Of a DNA stretch of 33,133 nt, positions 6,558 to 30,379 are shown in pieces (the stretch's first letter is position 1; the number at the start of each line of letters is the position of its first letter). The translations under genes and the position numbers were made by a program. Source of the stretch: Flavobacteriales bacterium (lineage in GTDB: Bacteria; Bacteroidota; Bacteroidia; Flavobacteriales_D; CANHHI01); the NCBI GenBank assembly GCA_947460225.1, contig CANHHI010000003.1:1-33133 (forward strand), written 5' to 3'. Below the pieces are notes generated by a model that ran no database searches, was not told the DNA's origin, and saw only the letters and a program-made list of their open reading frames with translations.

Positions 6558-7505
6558 TTAGGGTTTTTCTACCAAATCCATTTTACAAACAGGGCAGGTT
6601 CTAAAAACAGCATAGCGTTTTTTTCCTTCGCAATACATGGGACAAAAGAATTTTGGTGCTGTATAAGTTGCTTGCACCTGAAAATCTGCCGTGTAAAAAA
6701 CATCATCATGCAAAAATTGTAGCCATAATTTATAATTGGCGTTTTTCAAAAAAGGCGTTTCAAAAGCAATTTGATGGGCAGCGGGCAGAGGCTCCTGTAT
6801 CCAAAAGTCTTGCATGTCCTCAGATACCGCAATTAAAATGGCTTTACTTCCTAGGTAATCATCTAAATGCTGGGCATGTAAGGTATCTGCCAAGTGCGTA
6901 AAAGAAAAATGCAAAGAAAAAGGATTAGCACTAGAATCCGCTTGATACTGAGGCATCATATTTACTTGCACATCGCCTATGGACAAATTATTGTTAAACT
7001 GCCAATTGGTTTTCTTAGAGTTTGATTGTTTTTCTCCCAAAACAGCATGCACCCATTCTGTTTTTTCAGCAGACCTTGAAAAATACAGAAAAACATGATG
7101 ATTATTCAAGTTTTCTATTTTTTTAGAAAAATGTACAACATATCTATCATTGGCATCTTTTTCTGGGTGCAAGTATTCAAAATAAGAAAAGTCTGTACTG
7201 GTAAGCACTACATGAGCTGCATGTTCGTGTATTTTTTGCAAAGAGATGGGTTTTTCGCCAGCAAACAATTGCAAATACAAACCCGTAGTATCTTTTTCAT
7301 GAATTTCAAAAGCCAATTCCAAGCGTGGAGGATCCATTTGAGGCTCTATTTTTTTTAAAGACAGTCCGCAAATATTGCAAACACCAATGCTTGATGATTG
7401 AACCTCTGGGTGTAATTTGCATTGATATATTTCTTGCTCTTGTTTGCTAGGCATAACACAAGCATGTAAACCTATCAAGAACAAGAAAAGTACTTTTTTA
7501 AACAT
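6558..7505 (-). CDS. Lipoprotein with a heavy-metal-binding-like (HMBD/YHS-type) Cys motif at each end
   Basis: Lipobox-like LFLIGLHACVM. N-terminal YQCKLHPEVQSSSIGVCNICGLSL and C-terminal FFCPMYCEGKKRYAVFRTCPVCKMDL. Confidence 0.7.
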   Translation of the reverse strand: MFKKVLFLFLIGLHACVMPSKQEQEIYQCKLHPEVQSSSIGVCNICGLSLKKIEPQMDPPRLELAFEIHEKDTTGLYLQLFAGEKPISLQKIHEHAAHVVLTSTDFSYFEYLHPEKDANDRYVVHFSKKIENLNNHHVFLYFSRSAEKTEWVHAVLGEKQSNSKKTNWQFNNNLSIGDVQVNMMPQYQADSSANPFSLHFSFTHLADTLHAQHLDDYLGSKAILIAVSEDMQDFWIQEPLPAAHQIAFETPFLKNANYKLWLQFLHDDVFYTADFQVQATYTAPKFFCPMYCEGKKRYAVFRTCPVCKMDLVEKP

Positions 7506-13023: not shown

Positions 13024-14823
13024 TTAAAAGTTTAATATTGGGAATTTACCAACGCCTTGCCATTTCCAAGTACTTGAAAAATCAAAGCCAATAAAGTCGT
13101 TTTGGGTCATTTGACTGATATTTATTTGCGTGCCGTTGTTGTTCAAAAATTGCGAAACCTGAGGTTTATTGACATAATAGGTGTTTCTTATGGGGTAAAT
13201 GCCACTGGCATACCCGACAATACCACCTGCATAACGCAATAAAGACCCTTGAAAGATATTGGAGGCATAAGCATTTTCTAGCATTGTACGCTCAATGGCA
13301 TAGCCAAGCACACCGCCAACGCTTGCCCCACCAGCAACTAGTCCAGCAGACACATATACATCTTGTATTTGTGCATCTTGCGCAAGACCAACAAGCCCAC
13401 CAACTTGCTTGGTGCCATAAATATGCCCTGTTTCGCTGTAACTATTTTTAATGCTTGTTTTAAGAGCAAGACCTATCAAAGCCCCTGTGTTTTCTTTGCC
13501 ATCTACATGCGCATTTTTAATGCCTACTTTTTCAATGATGGCATTTTCCGCATATCCTGCCAAAACGCCTGTGTTTTCGCCTGTTCCTACCACGCTAGAA
13601 AAAACAAGGTTTACATTTTTAACTGTTGCCCCTTGTGTGAGTTCGCTAAACAAACCAACATTATCCACTGACACCAGGGCATTGGTATTGATGATTAAAT
13701 TTTTAATAGCATAACCCTTTCCGTCCAAAACACCCATAAAACCTCGTATAGGCTTCCAATTGCTGTTTGATAAAACAATGTCACCACTTAATTCATGCGT
13801 ATCAAACGGGCTTTCAATACCTATCTGTGCCAATTCTTTTTCATGGCTTATTTTTATGAGCAATGGATTGAGACGTTGCGTTTTCTCTGCATTCAACAAA
13901 ACACTTGGTGAGCTTTCTGCTATAATGTGTTGTCTAACTTTGATTAAATTTTCTTTTAAAAATAAAATTCTATCCCCAGAAAGGTGTGGATACATAATAT
14001 CTGTTCGTTTGGTGCTGTGTTTTAAAGAAAAGGCATGCCCAAGTTCGTGCACGACCGTTTGCAAAGAACGCCCCAAAGCAATTGTTCTTTTGCGTATAAA
14101 TATATTATTTTTGCCTGTTTTGGTTACGCCTGTGATATGATTTGGATCAGTCCCTCCGTTATCATCAGTTTCATAGCAAATATCAACTTCATCGCCAGCA
14201 TCACGTGTTTGGGCTTTGAAAGCTACTATCATAGACAAATAACCGCTATGATTTTTGTGCTGTAAATTTAACCAATGTTGAATTTTATTTGTTATGGCAT
14301 GTGGGTGTTCATCTGTTAAAAAAGTAGTCAAAAAAGTTGGGTTATCCTTTTCATCAATTAACTCTACGACCCAACCCAAAAAGCCAAAAAAGTCTGCATC
14401 TTCAAAATCCGTAGGCTCTGTGCTGATGTACAGTCGGCGTATAAACTCCTGTGCCGATAGAATAAGCTGAGTTTTTGCGGTTTCATCTACGGCATCGTGT
14501 CCAACTTGTGCTTTGCTGGAATAATAAATCCGCAAAGTAAGCGTGTTGGTTGGCACAAAATTAAACTGTGGTTGGTAACGCTCCACAAAACTGCCGTCCG
14601 CATCTTTATAAGTGCTTTTTACTAGCTCAATGCGGTCTCCAATAATATAAGGATCTCTTGTTAAAGGCACAATGGCAGGCAATTTATCGGCATAGCCATT
14701 GCCCAAGGAGAGCCTTTGATTAGCCTCTGCAACGGCAGTTTGGGTGTGTTGTGTTTTTTTCTTGCTACAAGCAAAAGCAGTAAGAACAAGCAAACTACCA
14801 AATAGAATTTGTTTGGTTTTCAT
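13024..14823 (-). CDS. Secreted lipoprotein: metzincin-type metalloprotease domain with C-terminal GLUG-like repeats
   Basis: Lipobox LTAFACSKKK. HELGHAFSLKH zinc motif (about 14017-14049) and downstream Met-turn-like DIMYP. C-terminal repeats (NVGLFSEL..., NTGVLAGYAENAIIEKVGIKN..., QVGGLVGLAQDAQIQDVYV..., SVGGVLGYAIERTMLENAYA). Confidence 0.82.
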   Translation of the reverse strand: MKTKQILFGSLLVLTAFACSKKKTQHTQTAVAEANQRLSLGNGYADKLPAIVPLTRDPYIIGDRIELVKSTYKDADGSFVERYQPQFNFVPTNTLTLRIYYSSKAQVGHDAVDETAKTQLILSAQEFIRRLYISTEPTDFEDADFFGFLGWVVELIDEKDNPTFLTTFLTDEHPHAITNKIQHWLNLQHKNHSGYLSMIVAFKAQTRDAGDEVDICYETDDNGGTDPNHITGVTKTGKNNIFIRKRTIALGRSLQTVVHELGHAFSLKHSTKRTDIMYPHLSGDRILFLKENLIKVRQHIIAESSPSVLLNAEKTQRLNPLLIKISHEKELAQIGIESPFDTHELSGDIVLSNSNWKPIRGFMGVLDGKGYAIKNLIINTNALVSVDNVGLFSELTQGATVKNVNLVFSSVVGTGENTGVLAGYAENAIIEKVGIKNAHVDGKENTGALIGLALKTSIKNSYSETGHIYGTKQVGGLVGLAQDAQIQDVYVSAGLVAGGASVGGVLGYAIERTMLENAYASNIFQGSLLRYAGGIVGYASGIYPIRNTYYVNKPQVSQFLNNNGTQINISQMTQNDFIGFDFSSTWKWQGVGKFPILNF

Positions 14824-19424: not shown

Positions 19425-19495
19425 ATATAAAAAAATTATTTAATTTTGCTCTGGCTAACGAAAAAATATAGGCACATTTTGTTTTGCAAAAAGTT

Positions 19496-19525
19496 TTGGA
19501 GTTATCAAGAATAATAGTAAATTTG
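19496..19525 (+). promoter_or_regulatory. Promoter of the TolC-MFP-RND operon (TTG-N19-TAAATTTG)
   Basis: TTG at 19496-19498, 19-nt spacer, TAAATTTG at 19518-19525, just upstream of ATG 19541. Confidence 0.55.
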
Positions 19526-19540
19526 CCCTCCATTTTAGAT

Positions 19541-20878
19541 ATGAAAAGAAATTTGTTTTTATTGCTATTTGCAATGAGTACCTTTCTGCATGCGCAGGAT
19601 ACTTTAAGGCTAGATTTAGCAACCGCAAAGCAAAAAGCACTCGCCCATAACCTGGCTTTGAGACAAACTGCCTTATCCAGACTTGCCGCACACAAAGAAG
19701 TATATGAAGCCTTAACGCAAGGTTTGTTTAATGTGCAAGCCAAGGCTGGTTTTACCGATAACATTACTTTGCCTGAACAAATTTTGCCAGGAGAAATACT
19801 TAATAAACCCGGTGAGTTTATTCCTGTCAAGTTTGGTACAAAATATGGCTTTAATACCAATGTTTCGGCTAATTTACTGCTATTTGATGCCAATTATGTT
19901 GTTGCGGTGCAGGCAGCAAAGGCTTACGAAGCCCTTTTAAAAGGACAAGAAAAAAATGCAAAACACCAGGCTTTAAATGCTGTTTCCATGGCGTATTATG
20001 CCACGCTCGCTGCAAGAGAGAGCATTGTTGTTTTGGCAAGTAATTTGAGCAATGCGGAAAAAATGTTGGAAGACCTGAAAAAAGTACTCGCCAGTGGCTT
20101 GATAGAAGAGACGGACGTGGACCAAATGCTTTTGAATGTTACCCGCATACGCAATAGTTTGTATGTAGCCAATATTCAAAGAGAATTAGGTGATAAAATG
20201 TTAAACTTTCAAATGGGAGAGCCTTTGCATACACCCTTGGTTTTTCAAGATAGTTTAGCATTGATGTGGGATTTAGCCGTGCAAGATGCGCCATCTTGGT
20301 ATGAAATGCCTTTTTCAGTGGAGGAACATGGCTTGTATCAATCAGCTTTTGAACAAGTGCGCTTGCAGAAAAAAAATCGTTTGAGATACCAAACTGCTTT
20401 TTTGCCTAATTTATCGGCTTTTGGTGCTTATACTTATGCCAAAAACACGCAAAATTTTGACTTTGGACAAAGACAAGGTTGGTTTTCAGCAACTGCATGG
20501 GGTTTGAATTTGAGTTTGCCTATTTTTTCTAGTGGCAATAAAATCATATCCATACAAAAAGCCAAAATAAACCTGGATAAATCTAAATTGCAGCTGGAAG
20601 AAACAAGCGAACAACTTGATTTGCAAATGCAACAAGCATTAACGGATTATTCTTCTGCTTATGCGTCTTATACCAATGCTTTGCAAAATGTAGAACTTTC
20701 CACTAAGATTTTGCGCAAAACAGAGCTTAAATTTAATGCAGGTACTGCCAACAGTTTGGATTATACACAGGCTTTGCAACAAGCCTTGTCGGCACAAAGC
20801 GATAAAATCCAGAGCCTTTTGGCTTTGCTCAATGCGAAAACTAAAATAGAAAACTTAAAACAAAATATAAATAACTAA
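19541..20878 (+). CDS. TolC-family outer-membrane efflux protein
   Basis: MKRNLFLLLFAMSTFLHAQDTLRLDLATAKQKALAHNLALRQTALSR; C-terminal coiled coil LRKTELKFNAGTANSLDYTQALQQALSAQ. Confidence 0.92.
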   Translation: MKRNLFLLLFAMSTFLHAQDTLRLDLATAKQKALAHNLALRQTALSRLAAHKEVYEALTQGLFNVQAKAGFTDNITLPEQILPGEILNKPGEFIPVKFGTKYGFNTNVSANLLLFDANYVVAVQAAKAYEALLKGQEKNAKHQALNAVSMAYYATLAARESIVVLASNLSNAEKMLEDLKKVLASGLIEETDVDQMLLNVTRIRNSLYVANIQRELGDKMLNFQMGEPLHTPLVFQDSLALMWDLAVQDAPSWYEMPFSVEEHGLYQSAFEQVRLQKKNRLRYQTAFLPNLSAFGAYTYAKNTQNFDFGQRQGWFSATAWGLNLSLPIFSSGNKIISIQKAKINLDKSKLQLEETSEQLDLQMQQALTDYSSAYASYTNALQNVELSTKILRKTELKFNAGTANSLDYTQALQQALSAQSDKIQSLLALLNAKTKIENLKQNINN

Positions 20879-20881
20879 AAC

Positions 20882-22000
20882 ATGGCTAAATTTTTAAATC
20901 CTTTCTTATTGTTGCTTTTGCTGGCATCTTGCACGGGAAAAAATCAAACAGAACAACAGGATAAAACGGCTTTGATTGCCGAGCAAAAACGCTTGCGCAC
21001 AGCTTTGCAAGAAATAGAAGAAAAACTGACGGCTTTGGACACCAACACCAATAACCGTGCTTTGGTTTATACACAAAAAGTGGAGCGTGGTACTTTTCAG
21101 CATTTTGTAGATGCCCAAGGCAGTTTGGAAAGCAAACAGACTTTGCAAATTTTTGCCGAAGTGCCGGGTAAAGTGATGCGCATAGAAGTGAAAGAAGGGC
21201 AGGCGGTTTCGCAAGGAACGGTGCTGATGCGCATGGAAACAGACATCATAGACCAACAAATCAAAGAACTGAAAAGTGCTTTTGAATTTGCCAGTTTCAC
21301 GTATGAAAAACAAAAATCGCTACACGATCAAGGCGTTGCATCGCTTTTGGAATATAAAACGGCTAAAAATAACTTTGAAAGTGTACAGCAAAAATTGAAA
21401 GCCATGCAAAATCAAAGGGAAAAATCTATTGTTACTGCGCCAATTTCTGGCTATGTGGATAAAATTTATGCCCGTGCAGGTGAAATCAATGCAGGACAAA
21501 TGCCAGCTTTTCGTTTGGTGAACACCGATAATATTTATGCTGAATTTGAAATGAGCGAGTCTTATGTGGGGCGCATAGAAAAAGGTGCTTTGGCTGAGGT
21601 TTCTGTGCCAACCTTGCAAGCCAAGTTTGAAAACTTACAAGTAACGCACGCAGGGCAATACATACACCCCAACAACAGAACGTTTACCGTGCAAATCGCG
21701 CTGAAAAAAGACAAACGCTTGGTGCCCAATTTGATTGTGAAAGCCAAAATCAAAGATTTTGAAGAAAAAAATACCCTGGTGATTCCTTCTTTTTGCGTGC
21801 AACAAGACAACAAAGGCAATGCTTATGTGTATGTTGTGGCAGAAGGGCAAAAAGCCGAAAAAAGAGCGGTGCAATTGGGTATGCAATACGAGCAAAATCA
21901 ACAAATATTAGAAGGGCTTACAGCAGGAGAGCTTTTGGTGGTAAAAGGATTTAAAAATATCCGACAAGGACAGGCTTTGCAAGTAAAAATGGATAACTAA
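20882..22000 (+). CDS. RND efflux periplasmic adaptor (MFP) lipoprotein
   Basis: LLLLLLASCTGKN lipobox; VPGKVMRIEVKEGQAVSQGTVLMRMET; TAPISGYVDKIYARAGEINAGQ. Confidence 0.94.
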   Translation: MAKFLNPFLLLLLLASCTGKNQTEQQDKTALIAEQKRLRTALQEIEEKLTALDTNTNNRALVYTQKVERGTFQHFVDAQGSLESKQTLQIFAEVPGKVMRIEVKEGQAVSQGTVLMRMETDIIDQQIKELKSAFEFASFTYEKQKSLHDQGVASLLEYKTAKNNFESVQQKLKAMQNQREKSIVTAPISGYVDKIYARAGEINAGQMPAFRLVNTDNIYAEFEMSESYVGRIEKGALAEVSVPTLQAKFENLQVTHAGQYIHPNNRTFTVQIALKKDKRLVPNLIVKAKIKDFEEKNTLVIPSFCVQQDNKGNAYVYVVAEGQKAEKRAVQLGMQYEQNQQILEGLTAGELLVVKGFKNIRQGQALQVKMDN

Positions 22001-22002
22001 TC

Positions 22003-25000
22003 ATGCAAAAAGAAACCAAATATAAAGAATTTGCCCTATCTTCTTGGGCAGTGGACAACAACAAAACGGTTTACCTCATTACTTTTTTGGTGTTTTTGTG
22101 GGGCTTGATAGCTTATACGTCTATGCCCAAAGAAGCGTTTCCGGAAATTGTTATTCCAGAAATTTATGTGAGTACGCCTTACCCTGGCTATTCCCCAGAT
22201 ATGGTGGAAGATAAAATCACAAGGGCTTTTGAAAAGGAAATTTATACCGTAAAAGGCGTAAAAAAAGTATCTTCCCAGTCGGTGCAAGGCTTTTCGTCTA
22301 TTAAAGTGGAATTTGACTATAAAGTGCCTATTTCCGAGGGTTTGCGCAAGGTTAAAGATGCGGTGGACAAGGCTCGGGCTAAAAAGGAATTTCCAAGGGA
22401 TTTGCCCATGGAGCCTATGATTTTTGAGGCGGATATGTCGCAGATGCCGATTGTGAATATTAACTTATCGGGGGATTATAGCGCAGAACAGCTCAATGAT
22501 TATGCAGAACTTTTGAAAGACCGCATAGAAGAACTCGCTGAAATCAACAAAGTAGATATAAGAGGCGTTCAGAAAAAAGAATTACTTATAGAAATAGACC
22601 CTGCACAAGCCACAGCACGTGATGTAAGTTTTACGGACATAGAAAATGCGGTGCGCTCGGAAAATGTTAATATTTCTAGCGGTGAACTTTTAGACCAAGG
22701 TATTCGCAGAGCTATTAACATTAACGCAGAGTTAAAAGACGCCAAAGATTTTGAAAATATTGTTGTCAAGCAACACCAGGGGCAACCCATTTATTTGCGA
22801 GATGTAGCCCGTGTGAAATTCACCTTTGCCGATGTGTCTTCATTTGCAAGGGAATTTAAAAAACCTGTGGTGATGCTGGACGTGAAAAAACGTTCTGGCG
22901 AAAATCTTTTGGAGGCTTCTGATAAAATCAGAACGCTTTTGCGCCATATTTGGTCAAGCGGAGAATTGCCAGCAGATTTAAGTTATACCCTCACCAACGA
23001 CCTTTCCAGAAACACGAGAGGGCAGGTGAGCAATTTGGAAAATTCCATTATTTTGGGTGTGCTTTTGGTGGTTGGTGTGCTTTTGTTCTTTATGGGCTTG
23101 GGCAACGCGCTTTTTGTGGGTGTAGCCATACCACTTTCTATGCTGATGTCTTTTATGATTTTGCGCAGTTTGGGCATTACCCTCAACGTGATGGTTTTGT
23201 TTTCTTTGGTTTTGGCATTGGGCATGCTGGTGGACAACGGCATTGTGGTGGTGGAAAACGTTTATCGCTGGCTAGATGAAGGCATGGACAGAATTTCTGC
23301 CACAAAACGTGCCGTAGGTGAAGTCGCTTATCCGATTATTGCCTCCACAGCCACCACTTTGGCGGCGTTTATTCCCTTGGCATTATGGCCAGGCATTATG
23401 GGGGAATTTATGAAATACTTGCCCATTACTTTGATTATTGTGCTAAGTTCTTCGCTTTTTGTGGCATTGGTTATCAATCCAGCTTTGGCGGCTTATTTTA
23501 TGAAGCCATCGAGTGCGCAACAAGCAGAAAAAACAAAACCCAGCAAAAAATTGTGGATACTGGTGGTTTTGGGCTTGGTATTTATTTTGATAGGCTGGCG
23601 CACGGTGGGCAATCTAATGGTGCTTTTTGCGCTGTTTAGCTATCTCAACAAGGTTTTTTTAATTCCTAAATCTTACGCTTTCCAAAATAAATTTTTGCCA
23701 AAATTGGAAAATGCGTATCAAAAAACTTTGCGGTTTGCTTTAAAAAATAAAAATCCAAGGCGTTTTACTTTGGGCACTTTTGCCTTGCTTTTTGTGTCCT
23801 TTGTGCTTTTGGGCGTTTTCACCCCTAAGGTTGAATTTTTCCCAGTCAATGAACCAACCTATATCAATGTTTTGATAGAAATGCCGATGGGTACAGATAT
23901 TGAACAAATGAACAATATCACCCGTCAGGTGGAAAATATTACCGAGCAAGTGCTTGGCAAATACAAAGATGTATATGGCATAAACGCAAAAACCCAAGAC
24001 ACCTTGCGCTTTGTGGAGTCTATGATTGCGCAAGTTGGGCAAGGAGCTTCCGATCCCAATGACGGCGTTGCCCTCAACGATACGCCCAATAAGGCACGTT
24101 TAACGGTTTCTTTTTCAGAGTTTGAATACAGAAATGGCGTGTCCACAGGCGAGGTGATGAAAGAACTGCGCCATGCCTTGGTGGGTGTTTTTCCTGCGGA
24201 TATAAAAATTGCTGTGGATAAAAACCGCTCTGGACCACCGCAAGAACCGCCTATCAACATAGAGGTGCGTGGGCATGCGGGTAGCCGTTATGAAGATATT
24301 TTAGATGCAGCCGATGATTTATTGGGCTATATTGGGCAAAAAAACATTGCGGGTATAGAAAATTTAAAAATGGATATAGAAATCAGCCGTCCTGAAATGC
24401 CTTTGCATATAGATAGGGAAAAAGCTCGGTTTTTGGGTTTATCCACCCAGCAGATTGCGTATCACGTGCGTACGGCTTTGTTTGGTAGTCAATTTTCAAC
24501 CTATAAACAAGGCAAAGAGGTGTATGATGTGAATTTGCGCTATCAAGACGAAGATAGATACAATTTAAATTTACTCTTAGACCAAAAAATTGTGTTTAGA
24601 GACCAAATTACGGGTAAATTGCTGAGTATTCCTTTGAGTGCCGTTTTGGAAGCCCCTAAAAAGACTTCCAGTTTTTCGGCGGTGAATAGATTAAATCAAC
24701 AGCGTTTGGTGCGTTTGAAATCGCAAGTTAGCGAGGGTTATAACGCCAATGAGGTTGTGCAAAACATCAAACAAACCTTGTCGGGTTATACCATGCCCGA
24801 TGGATTTATGTATAAATTCACGGGGCAACAAGAAGAGCAAGCCAAGGAGATGAAATTTTTGAGCACTGCGCTTTTGATAGCGGTATTTTTGGTGTTTTTA
24901 ATTATCGTGATGCAATTTAATTCTATTTCCACGCCTTTGATTATTATGTCGGCGGTGGTTTTGAGTTTGATTGGGGTTTTGCTTGGACTGGTGATTTTCC

Positions 25001-25461
25001 AGCGTCCCTTTATCATCATTATGACCATGATTGGGATTATCTCGCTGGCAGGTGTGGTGGTAAACAACGCCATTGTGCTTATTGACTATACGCAGGTTTT
25101 GGTGAATAAACGCAAGGACGAACTTGGGCTGTCATCTGACGAATATTTGGAGGAATCTGATATGAAAGCCTGCATTGTCAAAGGAGGCACAACACGTTTG
25201 CGCCCAGTACTGCTCACGGCAATTACCACCATTTTGGGATTGATACCTATGGCAGTGGGCATTAACATTAACTTTTTGACTTGGCTTTCGGATTACGATG
25301 CCAATATTTATTTGGGCGGAGAAAACGCATTGTTTTTTGGTGCCATGAGTGAGGCGATTATCTACGGTTTGGTGTTTGCCACCTTCTTGACTTTGGTGAT
25401 TGTCCCGGTGATGTATTTGCTTTTGTATAAATTAAAAAGGCGTTTAGCTAAAAATGGATAG
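22003..25461 (+). CDS. RND efflux transporter permease (AcrB/MexF-like)
   Basis: 1152 aa; PEIVIPEIYVSTPYPGYSPDMVEDKITR, LALGMLVDNGIVVVENVYRWLDEG, GGTTRLRPVLLTAITTILGLIPMA. Confidence 0.96.
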   Translation: MQKETKYKEFALSSWAVDNNKTVYLITFLVFLWGLIAYTSMPKEAFPEIVIPEIYVSTPYPGYSPDMVEDKITRAFEKEIYTVKGVKKVSSQSVQGFSSIKVEFDYKVPISEGLRKVKDAVDKARAKKEFPRDLPMEPMIFEADMSQMPIVNINLSGDYSAEQLNDYAELLKDRIEELAEINKVDIRGVQKKELLIEIDPAQATARDVSFTDIENAVRSENVNISSGELLDQGIRRAININAELKDAKDFENIVVKQHQGQPIYLRDVARVKFTFADVSSFAREFKKPVVMLDVKKRSGENLLEASDKIRTLLRHIWSSGELPADLSYTLTNDLSRNTRGQVSNLENSIILGVLLVVGVLLFFMGLGNALFVGVAIPLSMLMSFMILRSLGITLNVMVLFSLVLALGMLVDNGIVVVENVYRWLDEGMDRISATKRAVGEVAYPIIASTATTLAAFIPLALWPGIMGEFMKYLPITLIIVLSSSLFVALVINPALAAYFMKPSSAQQAEKTKPSKKLWILVVLGLVFILIGWRTVGNLMVLFALFSYLNKVFLIPKSYAFQNKFLPKLENAYQKTLRFALKNKNPRRFTLGTFALLFVSFVLLGVFTPKVEFFPVNEPTYINVLIEMPMGTDIEQMNNITRQVENITEQVLGKYKDVYGINAKTQDTLRFVESMIAQVGQGASDPNDGVALNDTPNKARLTVSFSEFEYRNGVSTGEVMKELRHALVGVFPADIKIAVDKNRSGPPQEPPINIEVRGHAGSRYEDILDAADDLLGYIGQKNIAGIENLKMDIEISRPEMPLHIDREKARFLGLSTQQIAYHVRTALFGSQFSTYKQGKEVYDVNLRYQDEDRYNLNLLLDQKIVFRDQITGKLLSIPLSAVLEAPKKTSSFSAVNRLNQQRLVRLKSQVSEGYNANEVVQNIKQTLSGYTMPDGFMYKFTGQQEEQAKEMKFLSTALLIAVFLVFLIIVMQFNSISTPLIIMSAVVLSLIGVLLGLVIFQRPFIIIMTMIGIISLAGVVVNNAIVLIDYTQVLVNKRKDELGLSSDEYLEESDMKACIVKGGTTRLRPVLLTAITTILGLIPMAVGININFLTWLSDYDANIYLGGENALFFGAMSEAIIYGLVFATFLTLVIVPVMYLLLYKLKRRLAKNG

Positions 25462-25470
25462 GAAACAAAA

Positions 25471-25498
25471 AAATCGGGCAATTGCCCGATTTTTTTTA
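25471..25498. terminator. Bidirectional terminator
   Basis: AAATCGGGCAATTGCCCGATTT palindrome with flanking A and T runs between convergent genes. Confidence 0.88.
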
Positions 25499-25516: not shown

Positions 25517-26680
25517 TTATTCTAGTTCAAATATTGCTTGAATTTCCACAGGAACACCCAAAGGCAAAGAACTTGTGCCCAAACTTGCTCGGGCATGTTT
25601 GCCTTTATCTCCTAAAATAGCAACCAATAAATTCGAGGCTTCATTGAGTAGTTTGGCGTGGTTTTGGTAATCTTCCGTTGTGTTGAAAAAGCCCGTGAGT
25701 TGCACGGTTTGTTTGACTTTACGCCAATCATTGTCTGTGGCTTTGTAGAGCACTGCCAAAACATTTAACAGCGTTGTTCTTGTGTTTTGCATGGCGTCCG
25801 CTTCGGAAATATCTCTGCCAATTTTGCCCACAAACTCAGGTTTTCCCTCCTTTAAGCCAATTTGATTGATATACACCAATTTGCCCACAATGGTGTAAGG
25901 GCGATAATTCCCCACAGGCTCAGGAACTTGGGGTAAAGTGATATTCATTTTTTCCAAACGTGCTTCAATCTCTTGATTTTTGCTGGGTTTTTCGCTTGTA
26001 TCATTTATCTTTGGATTGATGCCTTGCAGGGCTTTGGCAATTTCTGCCAAACGTGCACCTTGTAAGCGAGCTAAATACAATTCAGAAGCAGAAGGTCTTT
26101 CTCCACCTGCACCTGCTAAACTGCTTGTGCCATAAGGACTATTGCCTTGTGGAACGGATTTATCCACCTGTGCCATACCTGCCATGCCCGTTGGTATAAT
26201 CAACATGCCGTGCGATGCCAAAGCATGCCAAACGGATAACATGGCTGTTTCCTTGCCTGCGCCACTGCCTGCGGACATAAAAACGGTGCTTGGTTTTCCC
26301 GCCAATTTTTGTTCCGACCACAGTGGAATGGTTTGGCTGAGAAAGGCTGAAAATGCCGTGCTCATACCACCAAAATACACGGGACTTCCCCATGCTATCC
26401 CCTGGTACATGGGTAATTCTTCTACCTGCACAACAGGCAAATTATCCCAAGCCTGTTTTTTATTGGTTTGGTCAGGAATTCGTTTTAGGATAGCTTTGCA
26501 ATCGGCTATGCTTTCTACGCCTTCAGCTATGGCTTTTGCCATTTGGAAAGTGCCTCCGTTTTCAGAATGAAAGACCACCAAAATTTTTGTGCTGTCTTTT
26601 ATCATAGGCTTTGTTTTTTGCGGTGCGCCGTTTGCAATGCCATAAGACAACAAACCGATACCGATAATCAATTTCTTCAT
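25517..26680 (-). CDS. Putatively exported fusion: WrbA-like flavodoxin/quinone oxidoreductase + RidA (YjgF/YER057c) domain
   Basis: N-terminal signal peptide (MKKLIIGIGLLSYGIANGAPQ). WrbA-like KILVVFHSENGGTFQMAKAIAEGV, AWGSPVYFGGMSTAFSAFL, GKPSTVFMSAGSGAGKETAMLSVWHALASHGMLIIPTG. RidA part IEARLEKMNITLPQVPEPVGNYRPYTIVGKLVYINQIGLKEG...GKHARASLGTSSLPLGVPVEIQAIFELE. Confidence 0.87.
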   Translation of the reverse strand: MKKLIIGIGLLSYGIANGAPQKTKPMIKDSTKILVVFHSENGGTFQMAKAIAEGVESIADCKAILKRIPDQTNKKQAWDNLPVVQVEELPMYQGIAWGSPVYFGGMSTAFSAFLSQTIPLWSEQKLAGKPSTVFMSAGSGAGKETAMLSVWHALASHGMLIIPTGMAGMAQVDKSVPQGNSPYGTSSLAGAGGERPSASELYLARLQGARLAEIAKALQGINPKINDTSEKPSKNQEIEARLEKMNITLPQVPEPVGNYRPYTIVGKLVYINQIGLKEGKPEFVGKIGRDISEADAMQNTRTTLLNVLAVLYKATDNDWRKVKQTVQLTGFFNTTEDYQNHAKLLNEASNLLVAILGDKGKHARASLGTSSLPLGVPVEIQAIFELE

Positions 26681-26707: not shown

Positions 26708-27061
26708 TTAGCACCTTTCGGCAACCTTTGGATTTTTCAACAAATAATTTATGCCCCATTTTTCCATGCTTTCCAATACCGGGCATAGTTCTTTGCCAAA
26801 GTCTGTTAAAAAATATTCCACTTTTGGCGGTATCACGCTATGTACCTGCTTGTATATTAACCCGTCTGCGAGCAATTCTTGTATTTGCTTGCTTAAAACA
26901 CGCCGACTAATGTTTTTAATATTTCGTTCTATATCACTGGGTCTATGTACGCCTTTGGCAATAAAATGCAAAATATTCAATTTCCATTTTCCGCCAATAA
27001 TCACCAAAGTGATTGCCATGGGGCATAAATTTTTTTCTGTTTCTTTTGGTGTTTCTATCAT
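26708..27061 (-). CDS. HxlR-family winged-helix transcriptional regulator
   Basis: LCPMAITLVIIGGKWKLNILHFIAKGVHRPSDIERNIKNISRRVLSKQIQELLADGLI...PKVEYFLTDFGKELCPVLESMEKWG. Confidence 0.95.
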   Translation of the reverse strand: MIETPKETEKNLCPMAITLVIIGGKWKLNILHFIAKGVHRPSDIERNIKNISRRVLSKQIQELLADGLIYKQVHSVIPPKVEYFLTDFGKELCPVLESMEKWGINYLLKNPKVAERC

Positions 27062-27149: not shown

Positions 27150-27179
27150 CAAATATAGTAGATAATTATGAAACCACAA
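27150..27179 (-). promoter_or_regulatory. Promoter for hxlR and the WrbA-RidA gene (TTG-N19-TATATTTG on minus)
   Basis: Minus strand: TTG (27179-27177), 19 nt, TATATTTG (27157-27150). Confidence 0.4.
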
Positions 27180-27836
27180 GAAATTTTAGATGCCTTGCAG
27201 TGGCGATATTCGGTTAAAAAATTTGATGCGGGCAAAAAAATAGAAGAGTCTATTTGGCAAAACATTTTAGACGCCGCTGTGCTTACACCGTCTTCGTTTG
27301 GTTTACAGCCTTGGCAATTTTTAGACGTGCGAAACGTTGAACTACGTGAAAAACTTGTACTTGCGAGCTACGGGCAAAAACAAGTAGCAGAATCTTCGCA
27401 TCTTTTGGTGCTGACTTGCAAAAAAACGATGGACCAGGCGCATTTAGACCGTTTCCTTGCGGTGTCTCAAAAAATTAGAAAAGCCAATGCGATGGCAATT
27501 ATAGGTGAAAATGGGGCAACAGATTATGCTGGAGAAAATTTTAAAGCCATTACGCTGTCTTTTATACAAAGTTTGAGTGCCGAGCAAAATTTTATTTGGA
27601 ATGCCAATCAGATTTATATCGTTTTGGGCAATATTCTCACAGTAGCAGCCATGCTTGGGATTGATGCCATTCCTATGGAAGGCTTTGAAGCGGAAAAATA
27701 CAATGAAATTTTACACATAGATAAAAATTATACCGCTAAATTAGTTGTGCCTTTTGGTTATCGAAGTGCCCAAGACAAGAATGCGACGTATAACAAAGTG
27801 CGCTTTGATAAATCGGAAATTGTTAAAATTATTTAA
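27168..27836 (+). CDS. Nitroreductase-family NAD(P)H-dependent oxidoreductase
   Basis: ILDALQWRYSVKKFDAGKKI, AAVLTPSSFGLQPWQFLDV, NAMAIIGENGA...IPMEGFEAEKYNEIL: NfsB-like FMN nitroreductase. Confidence 0.93.
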   Translation: MKPQEILDALQWRYSVKKFDAGKKIEESIWQNILDAAVLTPSSFGLQPWQFLDVRNVELREKLVLASYGQKQVAESSHLLVLTCKKTMDQAHLDRFLAVSQKIRKANAMAIIGENGATDYAGENFKAITLSFIQSLSAEQNFIWNANQIYIVLGNILTVAAMLGIDAIPMEGFEAEKYNEILHIDKNYTAKLVVPFGYRSAQDKNATYNKVRFDKSEIVKII

Positions 27837-27838
27837 AT

Positions 27839-28282
27839 ATGACACCTAATCAGTACCACAGTCTTTCCAAAGAAACAGTAGATAAATTATACGCTACTTA
27901 CTTTAGTTTAAAAAATTCTTCTGTACCTGCAGAATTGGCAATTTTAACAGAAGTGTTTGTTTCCAGAATAAATGCCTGCGATTTTTGCATAGGTTATCAC
28001 GTGAAAGATGCCCAAAAGCATGGTATTTCTCAAGAGAAAATAGATGCTGTGTCCATGGATGTTTATCAAGATGCTATGTGTTTGGATGAGCAAGAAAAAT
28101 GGGCTTTGCAATATGCTCATGCTGTAACCATAAATCAAAAAGAGCGTTATGAAGAGCTACATAAACAGCTAGAACAAACATTTACTTCTCAGCAAATTGT
28201 GGATTTAACTTTGGTTATATCCATTACGAATTGTTTTAATAAACTAACAGGTTCTTTAAAATATGCAACCTTAAATGCTTAG
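27839..28282 (+). CDS. Carboxymuconolactone decarboxylase/AhpD-like protein
   Basis: AILTEVFVSRINACDFCIGYHVKDAQKHG: CxxC...H AhpD-core motif. Confidence 0.88.
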   Translation: MTPNQYHSLSKETVDKLYATYFSLKNSSVPAELAILTEVFVSRINACDFCIGYHVKDAQKHGISQEKIDAVSMDVYQDAMCLDEQEKWALQYAHAVTINQKERYEELHKQLEQTFTSQQIVDLTLVISITNCFNKLTGSLKYATLNA

Positions 28283-28901
28283 TTTTATGGATATTTTTTT
28301 TCAATCTTTTATACTGGGTTTAGCTATAACCATTCCTGTTGGACCTGCTACTTTTTTGTGTATCAATAGCACCTTAAATCAGGGATTTAGACATGGTTTG
28401 GTTACCAGTATAGGGATAACTTTAGCAGACTCTTTGTACGCACTTGTTGCAGTTTTGGGTCTTGGCACCATTACTGTATTTACTAGCCAGTACGGGTTTA
28501 TTCCCCAAGTGTTGGGTTCTTTGTTTTTGGCTTACTTGGGTGTAAAAAACCTGCGTAAGTCATCCACTTTGGATGCCCAAAAAGTAGTGCGGGCTAGTCT
28601 TTTGAAAAACTTTTTGAGTAGTTTTTTCTTTACTTTGTCCAGCCCAGCTACTTTAATTTTATTCTTAGCTGCTATGAGTTTGGTGCAATTTCAAGCTGAT
28701 ATGACTAGGGATATTGTGTTTATATTGCTAGGATTTATGTTGGCGTGCATGGGTTTTTGGTTGCTGCTTATAAGTGTATTGCTCTTGTTCAAAAAGCGTT
28801 TATCTGAAAACGCCATTAACATGATGAATAAAATATCTGGTTTGATTTTTATTGGTTTTGCCCTTGTGGGTTTCTATATGTTCTTCAAAAATATCTTATA
28901 G
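28275..28901 (+). CDS. LysE/RhtB-family transporter
   Basis: FILGLAITIPVGPATFLCINSTLNQGFRHGLVTSIGITLADSLYALVAVLGLG and LGVKNLRKS: LysE family. Confidence 0.9.
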   Translation: MLSFMDIFFQSFILGLAITIPVGPATFLCINSTLNQGFRHGLVTSIGITLADSLYALVAVLGLGTITVFTSQYGFIPQVLGSLFLAYLGVKNLRKSSTLDAQKVVRASLLKNFLSSFFFTLSSPATLILFLAAMSLVQFQADMTRDIVFILLGFMLACMGFWLLLISVLLLFKKRLSENAINMMNKISGLIFIGFALVGFYMFFKNIL

Positions 28902-28904
28902 AAT

Positions 28905-29969
28905 ATGTTAGTTAAACAAAATATAATCTTGCCAATGGCTTTGGCAGGTATTTTATCTGCCCAAAGTCCTGCTGTGCAAAAAGCCATGGCTTCTCGTTTG
29001 CCCGCAGACCCAAATAGAGTGTATTCCACGTTTAATACGGTTTTAATTGATAAAGAACTTGCGCCTGGTGTGTTTGCTGTTTTTGCCGACGATGCCTTTG
29101 AGCGTGGCGAAAAAGGCTTACAGGTGAGCACGTCTAGTGGTTATGTGATTGGCGAAAAAGGTGTTTTGGTGATAGATGCCCAGCAAACCAAAAGACTTGC
29201 CACCAATTTGATAGAACTTATCAAAGAAAAAACGGATAAACCTATTTTGTATGTGGTCAATACCAATTACTATGGCGACCATTCTTTTGGCAATCAATTT
29301 TTTGTTGCGGAAGGTTTTCGCATCATCAACAATGGCACCAAAATCATTCAACATGAAAATGCCCAAAAAATGATACAAAATCATTTTGAAGAAGATAGGG
29401 TTTTTGAATATACTTTGAGTGCACGCAAAGAAGACGTGGCAGAAATGCAACCCACGCCTGCCGATATTTTAATCACCGGGCAAGCTGTGAGCAAAACCGT
29501 GATTGATTTGGGCGATAAACAGGTGGAAATTATTTACCCAGGGCGCACCCAAACCGATGGAAATTTATTTGTGTATCTGCCTAAAGAAAAAGTGCTCTTT
29601 GGTGGAAATTCTATTCCTTCTGGGGGCAAAGTGGTGGGCATGCCTTGGCTTACGTACGGCGGTTTAGATGAATTTTTAAAATCTTTGCAGGTTTTGCGCA
29701 AGATGCTTGCGAGCGATTCGCAAATTGGCTCTGGACACGGTTATCCCACGGATATAAAGGCTTTGGATAATATTATTGTCTATTTTCAAGATTTGCAAAA
29801 AAGTGTTAGGCAAGCGGTAAACAAAGGCTTAGATTTGGCGCAAACAAAAATAAAAGTTAAACAAGACTTGGAAAAATACCGCAATCACACGCTTTTTGAG
29901 ATGATACAAGACCTCAATATTGAAAAAACTTATCAAGAATACAAAACAGTAACCCCTAAAACCAAATAA
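28905..29969 (+). CDS. Secreted metallo-beta-lactamase-fold protein with degenerate metal site
   Basis: N-terminal hydrophobic signal-like segment; MBL fold landmarks GVLVIDAQQTKRLATNLIELIKEKTDKPILYVVNTNYYGDHSFGN, YPGRTQTDGNLFVYLPKEKVLFGGNS, IGSGHGYPTD. Confidence 0.85.
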   Translation: MLVKQNIILPMALAGILSAQSPAVQKAMASRLPADPNRVYSTFNTVLIDKELAPGVFAVFADDAFERGEKGLQVSTSSGYVIGEKGVLVIDAQQTKRLATNLIELIKEKTDKPILYVVNTNYYGDHSFGNQFFVAEGFRIINNGTKIIQHENAQKMIQNHFEEDRVFEYTLSARKEDVAEMQPTPADILITGQAVSKTVIDLGDKQVEIIYPGRTQTDGNLFVYLPKEKVLFGGNSIPSGGKVVGMPWLTYGGLDEFLKSLQVLRKMLASDSQIGSGHGYPTDIKALDNIIVYFQDLQKSVRQAVNKGLDLAQTKIKVKQDLEKYRNHTLFEMIQDLNIEKTYQEYKTVTPKTK

Positions 29970-29971
29970 TT

Positions 29972-30379
29972 ATGCTTAAAAAAATTCTAAACTTGGATAT
30001 GATTCCAAAAAGTACAGACTTAGGGTTGCTTGCCTTGCGTCTAGTTATCAGTTTTGCCATGCTTGGCAAACATGCTTTGCACAAAATTTCAGATTTTAGT
30101 GCCATGAAAGACATTTTTCCAGACCCCTTGCATATTGGTTCTACCATGAGCTTAATTTCTGCCATTGTGGTGGAAAATGTATTTTCAATTTTATTGATTT
30201 TGGGCATTTATGCACGGTTTGCGGCTTTTGCCCTTTTTATGAATTTACTCGTTATTTGGGCTTTGGTGTATCAATTTTCCATCGCTACCGACCACCACGA
30301 ACTCGTGTTGCTCTATCTGGTGGGTTACTTCACCTTGATTTTTACAGGTGCAGGCAAGTACAGCCTTGATAAGCAATAA
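29972..30379 (+). CDS. DoxX-family membrane protein
   Basis: TDLGLLALRLVISFAMLGKHALHKISDF...FSILLILGIYARFAAFALFMNLLV: four-TM DoxX pattern. Confidence 0.85.
   Translation: MLKKILNLDMIPKSTDLGLLALRLVISFAMLGKHALHKISDFSAMKDIFPDPLHIGSTMSLISAIVVENVFSILLILGIYARFAAFALFMNLLVIWALVYQFSIATDHHELVLLYLVGYFTLIFTGAGKYSLDKQ

Follow-up and report, generated by a model that had tools for sequence, protein, structure and literature searches.

A conserved Bacteroidota gene family joins a WrbA-like flavodoxin domain to a Rid1-like domain behind a putative Sec leader

Main finding

The window analyzed here is a stretch of 33,133 nucleotides on contig 3 of a draft Flavobacteriales genome (1.45 Mb, 79% complete). It carries a wrbA-rid1 fusion gene (25517-26680, minus strand; 387 aa) whose single open reading frame (ORF) encodes a putative signal peptide, a WrbA-type flavodoxin domain, and a Rid domain. 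This is a genuine two-domain gene that belongs to a conserved Bacteroidota family, and its architecture is shared with 81 other loci. The product, probably exported via Sec like the other members of this WrbA–Rid1 family, may act in the periplasm or envelope and detoxify electrophilic aromatic or imine compounds in two steps. That functional reading is tentative, and we give it a probability of roughly 0.4. The two-domain family is apparently undescribed, its parts being known and their combination new to the literature searched. Within that literature, largely from outside the subscription journals, no relevant paper on a WrbA-RidA fusion or an exported RidA was found.

Gene and domain architecture

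The ORF opens with an ATG at 26680, closes with a stop codon at 25519-25517, and runs on the minus strand through 387 codons with no internal stop. The plus strand of the same interval contains many stops, leaving the minus strand as the only one with an open frame. The sequence-only reading, a note made from the letters alone, had described a single 387-aa ORF without naming its strand, and the description holds with the strand fixed as minus. A chance ORF is ruled out as the source of the fusion by the Pfam and NCBIfam scores and by the structural relatives found by sequence. Joining of two genes through a sequencing error, which the same reading had named as a possible refutation, is excluded by the 81 further single-ORF copies.

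In the predicted protein, the leader is followed by a WrbA/flavodoxin-like domain (aa 31-220; 26021-26590, minus strand), a short low-confidence linker (aa 221-236, INPKINDTSEKPSKNQ; 25973-26020, minus strand), and a Rid1-like PF14588 domain (aa 237-387; 25520-25972, minus strand). An AlphaFold2 model built from a 31-sequence family alignment reached a mean pLDDT of 81.7, with values below 50 at aa 223-234 in the linker. Its pTM of 0.56 means that the relative placement of the two domains is not defined by the model. The fusion is the sole PF01042 protein found in the 79% complete draft genome.

The WrbA-like half

Profile scores and structural matches place the first domain among WrbA-type proteins. 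Pfam FMN_red matches at 30.8 bits (cut-off 24), and NCBIfam NF002999, 'NAD(P)H:quinone oxidoreductase', matches aa 31-219 at 150.7 bits, above its cut-off of 141. The equivalog model TIGR01755 scores 130.1, just below its cut-off of 132.5, so the domain is termed WrbA-like here and is not assigned as a type IV NQO. A sequence search of solved structures returned WrbA proteins over aa 31-220 (E about 1e-36). When the AlphaFold2 model was compared with VIA-align, aa 30-221 superposed on WrbA and PnpB structures with Z of 28-29; for WrbA 3b6i, Z was 28.7 over 190 residues with an rmsd of 2.2. The flavodoxin-like domain proposed from the letters alone is borne out by these matches, with limits at aa 31-220.

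Conservation across the family is high at the predicted flavin site. Positions G42, F103, W121, H157, G138, and G140 are kept in all 82 fusions and T44 in 81 of them. The FMN-type phosphate loop S-x-x-G-G-T and the G-x-G loop are retained, as are several residues on the isoalloxazine side. Other positions differ from WrbA: Arg79 is replaced by His or Tyr, Thr114 by Ala, and Tyr143 by Ile or Met. Because the equivalents of Arg79 and Tyr143 are altered, the nicotinamide/quinone face may differ. The roles given to these positions are those that we take WrbA structures to assign to the corresponding residues.

The Rid1-like half

The second domain matches Pfam YjgF_endoribonc (PF14588) at 63.5 bits (cut-off 35) and Ribonuc_L-PSP (PF01042) at 31.9 bits (cut-off 27.3), whereas the archetypal RidA model TIGR00004 gives 28.6 bits against a cut-off of 106.25. 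On these scores the half is classed as Rid1-like (PF14588, which we equate with Rid1) and not as archetypal RidA. The complete RidA domain of the sequence-only reading is therefore retained as a Rid domain and dropped as an archetypal RidA. Among solved structures, 3d01 matches aa 236-386 by sequence (1e-29), and aa 234-387 of the model superpose on the Rid proteins 3d01 and 2otm with Z of 24.

R364, E379, and Y259, which correspond to R105, E120, and Y17 of E. coli RidA, are invariant in 82 of 82 fusions. As had been noticed from the sequence, the motif GKHARASLG keeps its Arg: this is R364 (codon 25589-25591, minus strand), aligned with the catalytic R105. A survey of the Rid family reported that this Arg is needed for imine hydrolysis by RidA and is present in Rid1-3, predicting activity there, that the in vivo substrates of Rid1-3 were unknown, and that Rid proteins are typically trimers (PMC4433059).

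The loop equivalent to Ser30-Gly31 reads I-N-Q in every fusion examined. It is one residue shorter than the T-[S/A]-G-Q or S-G-x-G-P of stand-alone Rid proteins, which suggests a changed pocket. This comparison comes from an alignment with stand-alone Rid proteins, as an alignment with E. coli RidA only is poor around Ser30/Asn88. By sequence, the I-N-Q loop is a variant pocket inside the Rid superfamily, and superfamily membership stands. Judged in this way, the pockets of both halves are conserved in the family, yet unlike those of the classical enzymes.

Rid proteins had been described in the sequence-only reading as normally cytoplasmic, a statement that needs qualifying for Bacteroidota. 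Stand-alone PF14588 Rids with Sec-type (L028, L029, L033, L034) or lipoprotein-type (L021, L035) leaders occur there, at about 1400-2100 in these loci, with an SGNGP, SGHGP, or AGKGP loop. No description of exported Rid proteins was found in the literature searched. As direct ancestors of the fused Rid domain, these stand-alone forms are unsupported by the tree, a quick one in which the window branch is long.

Leader and probable route of export

The putative Sec signal peptide covers about aa 1-22 (MKKLIIGIGLLSYGIANGAPQK; 26615-26680, minus strand), with a Lys-rich start followed by a hydrophobic stretch. Judged by composition, the window leader MKKLIIGIGLLSYGIANGAPQ is Sec-like, and the leaders of relatives, for example, MKKQLLVLLITVFIGFGAIAQ, are clearer. 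Across the 82 fusions, leaders are short and hydrophobic, start with Lys, and frequently end A-Q. A simple scan detected a strongly hydrophobic core in 79 of the 82; start-codon choice may be the cause in the remaining three.

Neither a twin-Arg (RR) motif nor a lipobox was found in any of the 82 leaders. The draft genome encodes TatC and ApbE. Composition and conservation of the leader agree with the export signal seen in the sequence-only reading, and the choice it had posed between Tat and Sec points to Sec despite the presence of TatC. The fusion proteins are probably exported via Sec, not Tat. Such a route implies that FMN is taken up after export.

Distribution and evolution

A pattern scan with the family alignment over a collection of 84,980 species returned 201 relatives, of which the best 80 were kept; all are full-length fusions. 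A single-sequence peptide-pattern scan of genome contigs found no match because its patterns are not conserved, whereas the alignment-based scan succeeded. Hosts among the best 80 of 201 include Flavobacterium, Chryseobacterium, Elizabethkingia, Pedobacter, Sphingobacterium, Myroides, Mesonia, Tenacibaculum, Psychroserpens, and Pontibacter. Among plasmids, tblastn added a full-length homologue on pYGP1 of Sphingobium sp. YG1, annotated 'NAD(P)H:quinone oxidoreductase'. These 80 other Bacteroidota loci and the plasmid copy show the same single-ORF architecture, at 46-53% identity to the window protein.

Five more full-length copies turned up among 395 sampled genomes of the phylum, and the fusion occurred in 16 of 296 genomes sampled from the Flavobacterium order. 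Closer to the window, 60 genomes of its own order held separate Rid or WrbA proteins only and no fusion, so the gene is patchy near this genome. Phages gave single-domain matches only. The sequence-only reading had called the fusion unusual, which does not hold for an architecture spread over many Bacteroidota genera and a Sphingobium plasmid. It had also allowed that the architecture might be both common and characterized; common it is, and no paper characterizing it was found in the literature searched.

Representatives of the family share a median identity of 56%. Distances of the two halves are correlated (Mantel r = 0.90, a value as high being reached in 0 of 2000 permutations). In the Rid tree, all fusion Rid domains lie on one side of a branch with support 93, the trees being quick ones with long branches for the window and Sphingobium rows. 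Because the halves co-diverged and the fusion Rid domains form one group, a single fusion event is probable. The Sphingobium copy is nested in a well-supported Bacteroidota set, which suggests transfer onto the plasmid. It was probably acquired from Bacteroidota.

Genomic neighborhood

A gene for an HxlR-family regulator of 117 aa (26708-27061, minus strand; PF01638, 95.2 bits) lies 27 bp upstream of the fusion gene, and the two form a probable operon. Cys13 of the regulator stands just before its HTH domain. Divergent from them, a plus-strand cluster begins with a nitroreductase (27168-27836; PF00881) and continues with an AhpD/carboxymuconolactone-decarboxylase-like protein (27839-28282; PF02627), a LysE-type exporter (28275-28901; PF01810), a metallo-beta-lactamase-fold protein with a leader-like N-terminus (28905-29969; PF00753, closest NCBIfam SoxH_rel_PQQ_2, below cut-off), and a DoxX-family membrane protein (29972-30379; PF07681). 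In the metallo-beta-lactamase-fold protein, NTNYYGDH takes the place of the usual HxHxDH metal motif, so its metal site looks altered. An operator search of the HxlR-nitroreductase intergenic region gave no convincing palindrome.

The palindrome TCGGGCAATTGCCCGA with a T run (25474-25497), read from the sequence, is a probable terminator, likely bidirectional, between the fusion gene and a convergent RND-pump gene. The latter is part of a tripartite RND efflux cluster (OEP, membrane-fusion protein, AcrB-type pump; 19484-25461, plus strand). Elsewhere in the window, two minus-strand ORFs are lipoprotein-like. One (6558-7505) has a Cys/His motif of heavy-metal-binding type at either end (YQCKLHPEV...CNIC; FFCPMYC...CPVC), and the other (13024-14823) combines a zinc-protease motif, HELGHAFSLKH, with GLUG-like repeats downstream of it.

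In B. subtilis, the DUF24/HxlR-type regulators YodB, CatR, and HypR sense quinones, HOCl, or diamide via an N-terminal Cys, and their regulons include azoR1, the nitroreductase gene yodC, and catDE (PMC6943732). The HxlR/nitroreductase arrangement of the window is not common to the 81 relatives: a relative of this HxlR protein occurs further off in seven loci, and the nitroreductase is nearby in none. An AraC-family regulator (PF12833 with AraC_binding) is found near the fusion in 40 of 80 loci; in 38 it is the directly adjacent divergent gene, usually 45-100 bp away. About 25 loci of the Flavobacterium group lack an adjacent regulator. The Sphingobium locus has LysR and SDR genes as neighbors; the fusion gene there (8914-10080 of L007) lies near IS66 and IS21, and an adjoining DMT transporter gene is seemingly split by IS66. 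What recurs across fusion loci is a dedicated regulator rather than a fixed pathway. Since relatives have AraC-type or LysR neighbors instead of HxlR, genomic context backs stress or catabolite induction loosely.

Proposed function and alternative readings

With a flavin reductase, an imine hydrolase, electrophile-type regulators, and an extracytosolic place brought together, detoxification of imine- and quinone-like compounds is the most economical reading. The Rid1 half would convert a reactive imine such as a quinone imine into the carbonyl by hydrolysis. The FMN-binding WrbA half would reduce the resulting quinone by two electrons, preventing redox cycling or thiol alkylation. In this genome, the HxlR-type regulator, presumed to sense redox state or electrophiles, would probably control the fusion and the divergent nitroreductase operon jointly. 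If the fusion is truly exported, cytosolic NAD(P)H cannot be the donor, and we assume that the electrons come from a membrane quinol or from a redox partner in the periplasm. We infer the substrate, cofactor, and donor steps of this scheme throughout, with a quinone imine as a plausible substrate linking both halves, for which the literature searched yielded no paper. The chloramine-type products mentioned in the sequence-only reading find no direct support in this analysis. Several points count against the detoxifier. The Arg79 and Tyr143 equivalents are changed, and the HxlR/nitroreductase setting is not shared by the relatives. Beyond the cytosol no NAD(P)H is expected, and FMN must be loaded after Sec export.

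The NAD(P)H and FMN-loading objections would vanish if the leader were uncleaved or vestigial and the protein stayed cytosolic, acting as a conventional NAD(P)H quinone reductase and imine hydrolase. The window leader is indeed less canonical than most of the 82-fusion set. Nearly all 82, however, carry a Lys and hydrophobic leader, often ending AQ, a pattern unlikely to persist unless export were under selection, and we hold a cytosolic role to be highly improbable. An oxidase would also dispense with periplasmic NAD(P)H: the flavin half would oxidize an envelope amine and the Rid half hydrolyze the released imine, as part of periplasmic amine catabolism, with the fusion as a natural channeling route. 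Rid proteins hydrolyze imines from flavin amine oxidases (PMC4433059) and are reported to accelerate a D-arginine dehydrogenase reaction (PMC5619798). The fusion domain nevertheless scores as WrbA and not as an amine-oxidase family. We know of no amine oxidase among WrbA/flavodoxin-fold proteins, and this role appears very unlikely.

The exported Rid half might instead be an envelope stress chaperone activated by HOCl through N-chlorination, as reported for E. coli RidA, with the flavodoxin half as redox sensor or scaffold. HypR, which belongs to the regulator family of the neighboring HxlR protein, responds to HOCl (PMC6943732). Chlorinated S. aureus YabJ lacks chaperone activity, so the effect of chlorination is not general (PMC6435465), and small-molecule chemistry is favored by the invariance of the catalytic residues Arg, Glu, and Tyr together with a specifically altered pocket loop. 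We therefore regard a chaperone as quite unlikely. Much the same likelihood attaches to a binding or assembly role in which at least one of the domains has no catalytic activity and a Rid trimer could multimerize the flavoprotein. The changed Arg79 and Tyr143 equivalents, the shortened Ser30-Gly31 loop, and the trimers typical of Rid proteins (PMC4433059) fit such a role. Against it, the 82 sequences show next to no variation in the Rid Arg and Glu or in the FMN phosphate loop despite the low median identity of representatives.

The detoxifier thus remains our preferred reading. A conserved tandem enzyme that couples flavin chemistry to imine hydrolysis on a dedicated extracytosolic substrate, quinone imines for instance, and draws electrons from the envelope in place of NAD(P)H is by itself unlikely. 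If it did exist, the Rid1 branch would gain an assigned substrate, handled in a rebuilt (I-N-Q) pocket. Fusion to a flavodoxin-type reductase offers a 'Rosetta stone' clue that opens the question of the Rid1 substrate to testing in culturable hosts, Flavobacterium johnsoniae among them. It also suggests that flavin and imine chemistry takes place in the envelope of Bacteroidota. The database name NAD(P)H:quinone oxidoreductase conceals both the predicted export and the second domain.

Comparison with known systems

E. coli WrbA (3b6i, 3zho) and PnpB (4laf) resemble the first half in fold and FMN phosphate loop, at about 38% identity. Equivalents of Phe80, Trp98, and the active-site His of WrbA, an NAD(P)H:quinone oxidoreductase type IV, are kept. 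Unlike WrbA, the fusion has an export-type leader, an attached Rid domain, and the Arg79 to His/Tyr and Tyr143 to Ile/Met changes.

The second half is closest in kind to Atu1372 (3d01) and SO_1960 (2otm), PF14588-type Rids that are probably Rid1, with a fold Z of 24 and 31-37% identity. It shares with them a PF14588 score above cut-off and the catalytic Arg, Glu, and Tyr, and differs in being fused, predicted to be exported, and equipped with I-N-Q for T-[S/A]-G-Q. The stand-alone exported Bacteroidota Rids likewise combine an export-type leader with a PF14588 domain that keeps the Arg. They lack a flavodoxin domain, branch off as a distinct group (support 99) when Rid domains are placed in a tree, and have an SGNGP/SGHGP-type loop, not INQ.

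The regulatory setting resembles the YodB, CatR, and HypR regulons, where an HxlR/DUF24 regulator with an N-terminal Cys stands beside nitroreductase, DoxX-type, and quinone-reductase genes, as in the window; CatD belongs to the DoxX family. Unlike the Bacillus subtilis regulons, the window belongs to another phylum, and regulation of its target genes is predicted from gene context. A further difference is that the fusion and the metallo-beta-lactamase-fold protein of the window cluster bear export-type leaders.
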